From: Magnetococcales bacterium
GTDB taxonomy: Bacteria; Pseudomonadota; Magnetococcia; Magnetococcales; JADFZT01
Length of the DNA: 64,000 nucleotides
Assembly (NCBI GenBank): GCA_015232395.1
Contig: JADFZT010000002.1
Coordinates: forward strand, 20,249-84,248
Reading direction: 5' to 3'
Of this stretch, positions 1 to 4,205 are shown in pieces. Every line of letters starts with the position of its first letter. The stretch's first letter is position 1. The position numbers and the translations under genes are program-made. A model generated the notes under the pieces. It did not search any database. It saw only the letters and a program-made list of their open reading frames with translations, and was not told where the DNA came from.

Positions 1-147
1 ACAACGATCCAATGCTGACCGGGACAGATCCGGTAGGATAAATTCTCTGGCCACAACCAAAAAATCATCTAATGGAAGTAGGAGTTTGAAGCGAACGGCT
101 TGAAGCAGAACTGCTATGACTGGCATGGGGTTGGAACGCGGAGGGGA

Positions 148-1326
148 ATGAAAAAGCTGCTGATCATTGAGGACGATCTGGATCTGGCCCAGCTCTATCG
201 GGAAACCCTGGAGCTGGATGGCTGGCAGGTGACCAGTGTCGAGACCTGTAAGGAGGCCCTCTTTCGCTTGGTCCGTAAAGATTATCCCGAGGTGATTTTT
301 CTGGATCTCAATCTACCCGACTGTCACGGCCTGGAAATTTTGGAGCTGATCGAAAAGGAAAAGATTCCCTCGGAGGTGGTGGTGATCACCGGTGAAGGGA
401 GTGTCTCCGGTGCTGTGCAGGCGGTGCGTTCGGGGGCGGTGGATTTTTTGGAAAAGCCGGTGGATGTCATCAAGATGGTAGAGGTGGCCGAAATCGCTTT
501 GGAGCGACGCAAGCAGGCCCTGGAAAATTTACAGAAACAGCAGGCCCAGCCAGAACAGGCCCTCAAGCCGCCAATTGATCCTACTTCTGCCAGCAACCCC
601 TTTCCCACCAATTGTCCTGCCGCCAAATCCCTGCCCTCTCATCTGGCTCAGGGGTCGGATCTGAAAATACCAACCGCGCCAGCTTTTTCCCATGCTTCTA
701 CAGGTCTGCATTTAAGGCCTCCCGTATCCGCCTCTCCAGGGATGGGTAAATGGTTTTTGGCCGGGGGGGTGGTTTTGCTGATATTGGCGGGTATCGCTGT
801 TTTGTTGAAGGATGATCTGGTTCAACCCGGTTGGGAAGAGCTGCCACCCGTCGCAGCGGTCACCGAAACGCAGCAATCGGCGCAGCAGGGATTTGGTGGG
901 GGGATGTGGCCGCTGCCCAAGGAGGGGGGGGTGGAGGTGGATCGAGTCGGTTATTATTATACCCAAAAGCTCACCGGCTATTATTGCCGCCACTATCTCA
1001 AAACCGGTTGTGAAAATGTGCCCATTCAGTTGAACCCTCTGAAATCAGGGTTCGGCAACATCCAAGATGGCGCGGTGCTCTTTTCCCGGAAGTGTGCCCG
1101 TTGCCATGGGGATTCGGGTCGGGGGTTGGGGCGGGATGCGGTACAGTTGAATTTTCCTCCCAAGCGGCTTGATTTTGCCGGTGAGGGGGTTTTGACCCGG
1201 GACAACTATCTCTTTTGGTCCATTGCCGAAGGGGGAGGGGTATTGGGAACGGATATGCCTGCCTTTAAAGAGCAGTTGGGTGAGACGGAGATCTGGAAGT
1301 TGGTTCTCTTCGTCAATACCCTCTGA
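148..1326 (+). CDS. Response regulator receiver fused through a membrane segment to a cytochrome c domain
   Basis: About 392 residues. Residues 1-118 form a complete receiver domain: acidic pair after KKLLIIEDD, phospho-acceptor Asp53 in VIFLDLNLPD, Thr81 in VITGEG and Lys103 in FLEKP. A Pro/Ser/Gln-rich linker follows (about 120-195). One hydrophobic helix lies at about 201-220. The C-terminal class I cytochrome c domain has a CARCH haem motif at 316-320 and a likely Met ligand in GTDMPAF. The expected topology is receiver in the cytoplasm and haem in the periplasm. I chose the ATG at 148 because GGAGGGG lies just before it; a TTG at 100 would add 16 residues. The gene stands alone, followed by a convergent anti-sigma gene. 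Receiver and cytochrome identities are secure; the combined role (redox-linked signalling) is inference. Confidence 0.9.
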   Translation: MKKLLIIEDDLDLAQLYRETLELDGWQVTSVETCKEALFRLVRKDYPEVIFLDLNLPDCHGLEILELIEKEKIPSEVVVITGEGSVSGAVQAVRSGAVDFLEKPVDVIKMVEVAEIALERRKQALENLQKQQAQPEQALKPPIDPTSASNPFPTNCPAAKSLPSHLAQGSDLKIPTAPAFSHASTGLHLRPPVSASPGMGKWFLAGGVVLLILAGIAVLLKDDLVQPGWEELPPVAAVTETQQSAQQGFGGGMWPLPKEGGVEVDRVGYYYTQKLTGYYCRHYLKTGCENVPIQLNPLKSGFGNIQDGAVLFSRKCARCHGDSGRGLGRDAVQLNFPPKRLDFAGEGVLTRDNYLFWSIAEGGGVLGTDMPAFKEQLGETEIWKLVLFVNTL

Positions 1327-1473: not shown

Positions 1474-2301
1474 TCAGATGCCCCGGGCGCTACGATCACC
1501 CTTTTTTTCGGTGTCGTTGGCGCTTTCGATGGGAGTGTAGAGGCTGATGCTTTCGTTTTCGGGGCTGGCGCTGTGGGTGAAGACCACCACTGGGGCTTGG
1601 CCGTTGTTGCGGATGGTGACGGCGTCACCCGATTGGGGTTTGCTGAGGGAGGCGTAGGTGATGCCATCCACAGTGAAGGTGTGGACCTGATCTTTTTTGG
1701 TTTCGGGGTTGTGATGTTTGACTTGCAGCCCGGTGGGTTCGAAAGATTCGAATTGCAGATGCACCGGCTTGTTGGCACCAGCGTTCAGAGCCACCTGGGT
1801 GGAATCCCCAGGGTTGACGATAAAGCGGTTGGTCCAGTCGAGGCGGGGTTCGGCGTTGACAAACTGCACATCCTGGATCTGTAGACGGGCGGCCTCCATC
1901 CGGGCCGGGGCGATTCCGGGCTGTTGGGAGAGCATGGGGGAGATCAGCCCCAGCACCAGCAGGGCACTGGCCAGCCCTGTGGCAAAGGAGAGGGGCTGCA
2001 TGGAAAGACCCCGAGGGGAGTTGAACCAGCTCCAGATGCGATGGAGGGGGTTTGGTTTTTCCTGCCAGGCGTTTTGGTGGATGGCGCTTTCGATCCGTTG
2101 GGAGAGTTGGGGCGAGGGGGATTTCAGGTCGGCAAGCCCTCCCAGATCCAGAAGTCCCTCTTCCATCTCCACCAACTCACCCATCTCTTCCTGGGCTTCG
2201 GCATCGTAGGCGGCCAGGCGATAGAGAATACGCATCTCTTCCCGGTTGAGATCCGCTTCCAGCCCCCGGCTGATCAGTTCTGATATCTCATCCCGTTCCA
2301 T
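1474..2301 (-). CDS. Probable membrane-anchored anti-sigma factor
   Basis: 275 residues. The N-terminal ~85 residues are acidic and helical, as in sigma-binding domains of anti-sigma factors, but I see no HxxxCxxC zinc motif. A single hydrophobic helix (about residues 101-126) separates this from a C-terminal domain that would be periplasmic and is rich in beta-strand-like sequence. The gene lies immediately downstream of an ECF sigma gene on the same strand, the usual sigma/anti-sigma order, and that context carries most of the assignment. RBS-like GGAGAG precedes the ATG. The last residues are charged and low in complexity. The ligand or stress sensed by the outer domain cannot be told. Confidence 0.6.
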   Translation of the reverse strand: MERDEISELISRGLEADLNREEMRILYRLAAYDAEAQEEMGELVEMEEGLLDLGGLADLKSPSPQLSQRIESAIHQNAWQEKPNPLHRIWSWFNSPRGLSMQPLSFATGLASALLVLGLISPMLSQQPGIAPARMEAARLQIQDVQFVNAEPRLDWTNRFIVNPGDSTQVALNAGANKPVHLQFESFEPTGLQVKHHNPETKKDQVHTFTVDGITYASLSKPQSGDAVTIRNNGQAPVVVFTHSASPENESISLYTPIESANDTEKKGDRSARGI

Positions 2302-2449
2302 GACATCTCTCCATTGGCATTTTTGCTCCGATTTGCCGGGGGATCGTGGGTTCAGATCCCTTCTTGGGTGTCAGCGCATCGGTGGTCGAACGCACCTTGC
2401 CTGAGGAGTGGGTAACCAGGGTGGGATGAAAGTTCTCCAGGTTGGCCAT
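2288..2449 (-). CDS. Possible small ORF between sigma and anti-sigma genes
   Basis: A 53-codon open frame starting with ATG at 2449 fills the gap between the ECF sigma gene and the anti-sigma gene and overlaps the anti-sigma start by 14 bases. The peptide is polar, with no membrane segment and no recognised motif. The upstream sequence is only GGGAA followed by an A-run, a weak ribosome site. It may be a translational coupling leader or chance; conservation in relatives would decide. Confidence 0.22.
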   Translation of the reverse strand: MANLENFHPTLVTHSSGKVRSTTDALTPKKGSEPTIPRQIGAKMPMERCHGTG

Positions 2450-2465
2450 TTTTTTCAAATTCCCG

Positions 2466-3074
2466 TCATCCTTTGAAGAGATCCATTTGGCCCGACTGCT
2501 TCAGCGCCTTGCGCAGAGCGGATCGGGCTCGAAAGATGCGGGTTTTCAGGGTGCCCATGGGGATGCCGATCACTTGGGCGGCTTCGTCATAGTTCATCCC
2601 CTCCAGAGAGACCAGGGTGAGGGCCTCCCGCAGGTCTGGTGTGAGCTTGCCGAGCCCCTCTTTCAGGGCTTGGAGGCGGGCGGCCGCCTGGGCCTGCTCT
2701 TCGGGGCCTTTTTCAGAGTCGGCAATCTCCGCCATTTCGTCGGTGGGGATTTGATTGTAGCGGTAGCCCGGGGAGCGGTTGATGTGGTTGCGCACCATGT
2801 TGCGGGCAATGCCCAACACCCAGGTGGAAAAACGGGACTCCCCCCGAAAATGGGCAAAACGCCGATGGGCCTCCAGAAAGGTCTCCTGGGTGAGATCTTC
2901 GGCATCCTGGGGGGTGTGAATCTGGCGGCTGATAAAGCGAAAAACCCGGGTTTCCAGTCGGCGAACCAGCTCGGTAAAGGCGGGTTTATTCCCTCGTCGG
3001 GCGGCGGTCACCGCATCGGCATCCGGGTCCCCCGGATAGATGGCGGTATAAGTGCCGGGAGCAGAAAGGGGCAT
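2466..3074 (-). CDS. ECF-family RNA polymerase sigma factor (RpoE-like)
   Basis: About 202 residues with the standard ECF layout. Sigma region 2 spans roughly residues 15-95, with the RFISRQIHTPQDAEDLTQET core typical of region 2.1-2.4. A linker follows, then sigma region 4 at about 130-190, with LREALTLVSLEGMNYDEAAQ and the HTH GIPMGTLKTRIFRARSALR. The open frame extends upstream, but that extension overlaps the preceding gene out of frame and looks non-coding. I therefore take the ATG at 3074, two bases past the stop of the secreted-protein gene. That implies translational coupling, since no strong ribosome site is visible. The putative anti-sigma factor follows at 2301. Confidence 0.88.
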   Translation of the reverse strand: MPLSAPGTYTAIYPGDPDADAVTAARRGNKPAFTELVRRLETRVFRFISRQIHTPQDAEDLTQETFLEAHRRFAHFRGESRFSTWVLGIARNMVRNHINRSPGYRYNQIPTDEMAEIADSEKGPEEQAQAAARLQALKEGLGKLTPDLREALTLVSLEGMNYDEAAQVIGIPMGTLKTRIFRARSALRKALKQSGQMDLFKG

Positions 3075-3076
3075 GG

Positions 3077-3502
3077 TCAGCGCAGATGGGGAGGCAGTGG
3101 CTGACGGGCTCTTCTTTTGCCAGATCCCGGTCCAGCTGCCCCACCGACGTGACAGATGATTTTGTTGATATCGCCCGTGACCCGCACTGTTCCTCCCCGG
3201 CTGACCCGTGCCCGGCATTCAGAATCCCAGCCGGGGCGGTTGCCTTTACGAACCGGTACGAATCCCCCCATCACCAGAAGGGGGGTCATATCCTTGCCAC
3301 GCTTGACGCATCCATCCGGGCTACAGCAAGCCTCACTGCCGGGTTCGATGTCGGTGTTGAAGGGGCTGGAGTCCAGGGCGCGGACGTGGAGCGCCACTGT
3401 GGTTTTGTTGAGTACACAAAAGGCGTCAGCTGCTCCGGGTGTCAGCACCAGCAGAAAAAATCCCAGGAAGGCCAAAAAGCCCCGATAGGCCGTGATGGTC
3501 AT
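3077..3502 (-). CDS. Small secreted cysteine-containing protein, first gene of the sigma operon
   Basis: 141 residues. The ATG at 3502 follows a perfect-looking GGAGG and opens a classical signal peptide (hydrophobic core AFLGFFLLVLTPGA, cleavage expected near ADA-FC). The mature part is about 115 residues and holds seven cysteines, including CCSPDGC, which suggests disulfides or metal binding in the periplasm. I do not recognise a family. The gene ends two bases before the ECF sigma start, so it is likely co-transcribed with the sigma and anti-sigma genes and may be a sensor or a target of that circuit. The C-terminal end is Arg/Pro-rich. Confidence 0.6.
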   Translation of the reverse strand: MTITAYRGFLAFLGFFLLVLTPGAADAFCVLNKTTVALHVRALDSSPFNTDIEPGSEACCSPDGCVKRGKDMTPLLVMGGFVPVRKGNRPGWDSECRARVSRGGTVRVTGDINKIICHVGGAAGPGSGKRRARQPLPPHLR

Positions 3503-3809
3503 GGATCCTCCAGATAACATTGAAAACGTTTTCGGTTTGACCATGGGTGGCGAGGTGGCGGCAATTGGTTCCAAAAAAACGTAAACGCCTCCAGCCACAG
3601 ATCCATCTTCTTATGATACTCCCTTTTTAAAGATGGGCGAACCCTTCTTGGTGGGCATGGAGGGGGAGAGGGGGGAATGGATTGATTTTTTTTGCGGATC
3701 GTCAATTTTTTTTGAAACAATTTATTCAGGCGCGCTACTCACTCTTCAAATGGCGCTCGGATCGAGGGCGAAAAGGACAGCTTCCAAGAGAGTTTCAAAG
3801 GAGATGAAA

Positions 3810-4205
3810 ATGCGTTTGGCCAAAAAATTGAGTGTGCGGATGGTGATGGGATTGGCCCTGGCGATGGCCCTCGGCAGTGGTGTGGCTCAGGCGGACGAAG
3901 TGTCGGTTGGCCAAAAAACCTTCAAGAAAAAGTGTGGCACCTGCCACACCATCGAAGCGGGAGAGAAGGATCGTGTCGGTCCCAACCTTCACGGGGTGTT
4001 TGGACGCAAGGCCGGGGTCAAAGAGAGCTATACCAAATATTCCAAGGGAATGGTGGCATCCGGGCTGACCTGGGATGAGGCGACCCTGGACAGCTATTTG
4101 GCCAACCCTCGCAAAGTGATCAAAAAGACCCGGATGGCTTTTCCCGGCCTCAAGAAAAAGGCCCATCGGGATGCGGTGATCGCCTATCTGAAAACGATGC
4201 AATAA
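3810..4205 (+). CDS. Periplasmic class I cytochrome c
   Basis: About 131 residues. A signal peptide (hydrophobic GLALAMALGSGVAQA, cleavage near QA-DE) is followed by a cytochrome c2/mitochondrial-type domain: CGTCH haem motif, the family signature VGPNLHGVFGRKAG, and a Met ligand in TRMAFPG. It should carry electrons in the periplasm between a bc1-type complex and terminal oxidases or reductases. AAGGAG sits directly against the ATG at 3804 but six bases from the ATG at 3810, so 3810 is the better start. The gene is monocistronic and followed by a series of hairpins. The lysine-rich surface matches typical small electron carriers. Confidence 0.93.
   Translation: MRLAKKLSVRMVMGLALAMALGSGVAQADEVSVGQKTFKKKCGTCHTIEAGEKDRVGPNLHGVFGRKAGVKESYTKYSKGMVASGLTWDEATLDSYLANPRKVIKKTRMAFPGLKKKAHRDAVIAYLKTMQ

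Follow-up and report, generated by a model that had tools for sequence, protein, structure and literature searches.

The gene at positions 148–1326 (plus strand) of the stretch of Magnetococcales DNA analysed here (64 000 nucleotides, referred to as the window) raises the question of what a receiver (REC) domain does when it is joined across a membrane to a cytochrome c. Two-component and phosphorelay signalling normally learns of respiration via cytoplasmic redox sensors or via kinases with periplasmic domains, and a first-pass annotation of the window had proposed that in this protein the cytochrome is a response-regulator output. In what follows, loci and genomes carry L and G labels respectively, A1 and A2 are alignments, and 'the order' is Magnetococcales.

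Domain organization of the window protein

The ORF starts with an ATG, has a ribosome-binding-like GGAGGGG ahead of it (140–146) and continues for 392 residues with no interior stop or frameshift; all features in this paragraph are on the plus strand. Residues 5–113 (160–486) match the Pfam family Response_reg (PF00072; 77.3 bits, E-value 1.3e-21, cut-off 30.2), and the residues associated with phosphorylation are all present (E8, D9 and D10, the acceptor D53, T81 and K103). A low-complexity linker rich in proline, alanine and serine follows (residues about 120–198, 505–741), which has no Pfam match, and then the one strongly hydrophobic segment of the protein (residues 202–220, WFLAGGVVLLILAGIAVLL; 751–807), with a mean Kyte–Doolittle value of 2.66. 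Beyond this transmembrane (TM) helix lies a juxtamembrane stretch of the form R..YYY......YYCxxYLxxxC......NPL (931–1062), which is conserved in A1 and includes Cys280 and Cys288. The C-terminal domain (residues 304–389, 1057–1314) is a mono-haem cytochrome c, matching Cytochrome_CBB3 (PF13442; 41.4 bits, 1.8e-10, above the cut-off) and, at residues 306–392, Cytochrom_C (PF00034; 2.2e-6). Its haem-attachment motif is CARCH (residues 316–320, 1093–1107), of which both cysteines and the histidine are invariant in A1, and Met370 of the sequence MPAF (1255–1257) is the probable distal haem ligand, the MP pair also being invariant in A1.

The window protein is thus a REC head, one TM helix and a mono-haem cytochrome c of the His/Met type, and the complete receiver, single helix and CXXCH cytochrome with a Met ligand listed in the first-pass annotation were all confirmed by Pfam, hydropathy and inspection of the residues. 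Pfam searches of the protein found no sigma-54 AAA+ domain, HTH, enzyme or other usual REC output; nor did they find HisKA and HATPase domains, so that it is not a sensor histidine kinase. No DNA-binding winged helix is present at the N terminus, where the REC domain stands, and no Cache fold with a haem motif (sCache_heme, DUF3365) was seen, the periplasmic part matching Cytochrome_CBB3 and Cytochrom_C only. The haem of CXXCH motifs is attached in the periplasm, and the motif together with the single TM helix points to an N-in/C-out topology. Lysine and arginine are more numerous before the helix than after it in most members of the family described below, weakly so in the window protein (2 versus 1). 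The proposal that a cytoplasmic phospho-acceptor is tied to a periplasmic haem is therefore supported at the level of predicted anatomy. An AlphaFold model of the window protein built from the single sequence had a pLDDT of 41.

The first-pass annotation had also raised the possibility that a frameshift had joined two genes. A frameshift or an assembly chimera is excluded by the uninterrupted ORF and by the same domain order in two other genomes, G013 (locus L019) and G028 (L041), in each of which Pfam finds a full REC domain and a cytochrome.

A constant TM–cytochrome module with exchangeable heads

A survey that covered 60 relatives at first and then all 48 genomes of the order found the TM helix, juxtamembrane stretch and cytochrome together in 21 copies, distributed among 13 of the 48 genomes; the family is missing from G011, which is a single contig. 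In A1, the alignment of this TM–cytochrome part, CxxCHG and MP are invariant, and the juxtamembrane signature R..YFY......YYCxxYLxxxC.......NPL is specific to the family. The cytoplasmic heads are of several kinds, with REC domains in three copies (the window, L019 and L041), haemerythrin in one, short heads in two and alpha-helical heads in the other 15 (L014, L015, L017, L018, L021, L022, L024, L025, L027, L035–L038, L040 and L002; alignment A2). The helical head was compared, profile against profile, with Xer-type core-binding domains (14, all from the order), which gave a probability of 96.5 (E-value 7.8e-10), while the value for a REC control was 0.3; single members have weak Pfam matches (5e-4 to 0.2, the best being Phage_int_SAM at 5e-4), and no match was found among PDB profiles. 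These heads are accordingly referred to as core-binding-like, and we note that a domain resembling the core-binding part of tyrosine recombinases, with no catalytic domain, serves here as the head of a membrane cytochrome c.

The haemerythrin copy (L020:1498–2580; Pfam 2.3e-12, NCBIfam 4e-22) has the order haemerythrin, TM helix, cytochrome c and is nested among the core-binding copies in the cytochrome tree (100/99), which implies a further exchange of heads. The TM–cytochrome part is thus constant while the cytoplasmic head has been swapped, the heads being core-binding-like, REC (taken up twice) and haemerythrin. In three further relatives (L004, L055 and L056) nothing but a hydrophobic segment at the N terminus precedes the cytochrome; one such headless relative in the genome of the window (L004/L074) is located, judging by sequence, near nitrate-reductase-like and multihaem-cytochrome-like genes.

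Evenly drawn samples from the phylum (399 genomes) and from one class (369) provided about 720 genomes from outside the order. The tethered module was found in none of these, where matches covered the cytochrome core only (model positions 90 onward) and belonged to proteins with no such tether, mostly small cytochromes. As far as sampled, the tethered form appears confined to the order, in agreement with the earlier suggestion that the REC–cytochrome c join is rare; the samples bear on this cytochrome family, and REC–TM–cytochromes built from other cytochrome families may exist elsewhere. When the full window protein was compared with the genome collection the best segments were in the REC domain only, and no plasmid record covered 80 % of the full REC–TM–cytochrome protein.

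Origin of the REC heads and phosphorelay context

When 42 REC domains were placed in a tree, the window REC fell within an NtrC-like clade (100/98) that includes RECs of sigma-54 activators of the order, although the sigma-54 AAA+ and HTH domains that follow REC in the NtrC family are lacking. Its sisters are the RECs of L023 and L026 (98/90). The L019 and L041 RECs group instead with stand-alone RECs of immediately neighbouring genes (100/99). A constrained tree in which the three fused RECs, a group defined by architecture, form one clade was rejected (p-AU 8.8e-6), while in the cytochrome tree a single clade of the three REC-headed rows was not (p 0.13). The placement of the fused RECs in different clades indicates that REC was joined to the module at least twice, or that one REC was later exchanged for another. 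The acceptor Asp, the Thr/Ser and the Lys are kept in all three.

Genes for phosphorelay proteins adjoin two of the three REC-headed copies. Downstream of L041 are genes for a hybrid kinase composed of GAF, HisKA, HATPase, REC and Hpt domains and for a REC–SpoIIE protein, with a stand-alone REC upstream; L019 has a stand-alone REC and an Hpt-containing hybrid kinase encoded upstream of it. No cognate kinase adjoins the window gene. The nearest REC paralogue in its genome (48 % identity) is a sigma-54 activator, encoded in a cluster with a sugar epimerase, an HPt protein, an NMT1-like protein and a histidine kinase, and this HPt, at L120:6718–7140, is a plausible candidate phosphodonor for the window REC.

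Sister proteins and polysaccharide loci

The sister REC domains belong to proteins (L026:1480–3216 and L023:142–1866) consisting of REC, a basic RR-rich linker, a TM helix and a periplasmic sensor domain that is PF21623-like (7e-11 and 7e-7 in the L023 and L026 proteins). They share with the window protein the related REC, the single helix and the absence of a kinase domain, but their periplasmic domain is Cache-like and has no haem motif, whereas that of the window protein is a cytochrome c. A REC–TM–Cache-like gene of this kind in G022 lies in a polysaccharide locus with a flippase, Wzy_C, Wzz with a tyrosine-kinase AAA domain, Poly_export/SLBB and a BBP2_2 porin. In the g17 genomes the core-binding–TM–cytochrome genes and the short-headed L085 occur in loci of this type (Wzy_C, Wzz and BBP2_2, with Poly_export in three). 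GT9 and GT2 glycosyltransferases adjoin the cytochrome copies L075, L076 and L084, sugar dehydratases adjoin L083, L085 and (by sequence) L073, and Wzy_C adjoins L088 and L090, but not every copy is so placed, L077 being beside lon. No kinase or polysaccharide gene is beside the window gene itself, the product of which joins a head and a tail that are both known from membrane proteins of polysaccharide loci.

The repeated placement in such loci would also be expected if the head merely positioned the cytochrome at the polysaccharide machinery or a kinase, or acted as a phosphate sink, with no signal crossing the membrane. The unrelated folds of the heads fit such a tethered electron carrier, as does the finding that the nearest untethered relatives of the cytochrome are small periplasmic cytochromes; the preservation of the acceptor residues in every fused REC and the two separate REC captures speak against it, and we regard it as unlikely.

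Local context of the window gene

The 5′ end of the gene is abutted by the antisense remnant of a decayed transposase (1–126, and L072:9350–9520; minus strand), which ends about 20–55 bp from the start codon and was recognized by tblastn with the L124 transposase (4e-10). Its pieces are in three frames and flank a 479 bp gap of Ns. A hidden gene in this gap is unlikely, since the missing part of the transposase, about 160 codons (about 480 bp), corresponds to its length. No further copies of the upstream sequence (query, window 1–200) were found in the same genome, and no sigma-70-like promoter was found on the plus strand upstream of the gene. The abutting transposase and the lack of a promoter match make its expression uncertain and, with its isolated context, are what would be seen if the gene were a dying or accidental fusion that a mobile element had cut from its locus and that was not expressed. 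The intact ORF, the ribosome site, the retention of all REC and haem residues and the recurrence of the same order in two other genomes make this improbable.

Beyond the transposase remnant are a gene for a BLUF blue-light sensor (L072:8881–9306) and, at L072:5410–7926, genes for a TPR protein with a caspase fold (PF00656) and, after it, a protein with an FGE-sulfatase domain. On the other side, the minus strand at 1474–3218 carries the gene for an ECF sigma factor and, downstream of it, an ORF with no Pfam match, possibly its anti-sigma factor. The stand-alone cytochrome c to which the first-pass annotation drew attention does exist (about 3669–4205; best match Cytochrom_C). It is, however, 2.3 kb away, behind two opposite-strand genes and outside the transcription unit of the window gene; no conserved operon with it or with the ECF sigma gene was seen in relatives, and its proximity loses its value as evidence.

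Relationship to known systems

With response regulators (PF00072, NtrC-like clade) the window protein shares a full REC domain with acceptor and switch residues, but it differs in spanning the membrane and carrying a periplasmic haem domain in place of an AAA+/HTH or enzymic output. One-component regulators of the ToxR/CadC type have an N-terminal cytoplasmic head, one TM helix and a C-terminal periplasmic domain, a layout that the window protein shares according to the hydropathy prediction, although its head is a REC domain and not a winged helix, and its periplasmic domain is a cytochrome. The latter is the same domain as in class I mono-haem cytochromes c (c552, PDB 7o9u and 9vr0; PedF c550), with CXXCH, a Met ligand and similar sequence, to which are added an N-terminal TM anchor, a cytoplasmic head and the juxtamembrane stretch with two cysteines. 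Covalently bound haem c in signalling-linked periplasmic domains is reported for Geobacter GSU0582 and GSU0935 and for sCache_heme (PMC3460858, PMC12889525); these are PAS or Cache folds on chemoreceptors or other transducers, whereas the window protein combines a true cytochrome c with REC. No description of a REC–TM–cytochrome c, or of a cytochrome module whose cytoplasmic heads are interchangeable, was found in the open-access literature. Each of the parts is already known, and there is a real chance that in combination they represent transmembrane redox regulators of a new class.

Direction of signalling

The reading that we prefer, to which we would assign a probability of roughly 0.4, is that a phosphorelay-linked head learns the redox state of the periplasm from the cytochrome, probably in the control of envelope polysaccharide, by analogy with ToxR-like proteins. 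The protein would be a single-pass inner-membrane adaptor, N-in/C-out, whose cytochrome may exchange electrons with the periplasmic carrier pool and whose redox or partner-bound state would be conveyed through the TM helix to REC. The REC domain would receive its phosphate from a phosphorelay (HPt or hybrid kinase) and would be biased by the redox state in its phosphorylation, dephosphorylation or partner binding, giving a redox-gated node in envelope-polysaccharide control. The anatomy proposed in the first-pass annotation stands, but the cytochrome as output is one of two possible directions, and both the direction and the coupling across the membrane are inferred. The cytochrome as input is favoured mainly because the same REC lineage, that of the closest REC relatives, carries a Cache-like periplasmic sensor in its place, and because the same module bears non-REC heads, most of them related to a DNA-binding fold. 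The hybrid kinases with Hpt and stand-alone RECs beside L019 and L041, the REC–SpoIIE gene beside L041 and the similar polysaccharide loci of the sister REC proteins and the g17 core-binding–TM–cytochromes support it as well, as do the periplasmic c-haem sensor domains established elsewhere (PMC3460858, PMC12889525). Further support comes from the intactness of the ORF and its domains, the recurrence of the domain order in G013 and G028, the two origins of the fused RECs with their acceptor residues retained, and the HPt gene next to the REC paralogue.

Several observations weaken it, among them the surroundings of the window gene, which has no kinase or polysaccharide neighbour and no promoter match, and whose 5′ end adjoins the transposase remnant. 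The cytochrome is more like soluble electron carriers (c552, PedF) than known sensors, and coupling through one helix is made doubtful by the roughly 80 low-complexity residues between REC and the membrane. REC and haemerythrin are usually input domains, which fits the reverse direction, in which phosphorylation of REC (or O2 at haemerythrin) would switch the cytochrome, for example through dimerization or altered access of redox partners, making the cytochrome the output. Such inside-out control would account for a constant, carrier-like cytochrome beneath varying classic input heads. It is opposed by the core-binding-like nature of most heads, which is no known input, by the joining of the sister REC to a Cache-like sensor and not to an electron carrier, and by the same low-complexity linker, and we consider it rather unlikely. 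For the family as a whole we suggest, tentatively, a hitherto undescribed class of transmembrane redox regulators, restricted to the order, in which a constant TM–cytochrome c with exchangeable heads may connect periplasmic electron flow directly with DNA, with a phosphorelay or with the sensing of oxygen when envelope polysaccharides are regulated.

In this protein the receiver itself carries, across the membrane, a periplasmic haem of the electron-transfer kind, through a join apparently made at least twice in evolution. If redox state and phosphorylation communicate, the protein would be a small and testable system in which a single membrane helix links electron flow with signalling, and the swappable heads amount to a natural experiment that may tell the input end from the output end. 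The varied inside domains on a shared membrane–cytochrome part suggest a little-known link between electron flow at the cell surface and signalling.
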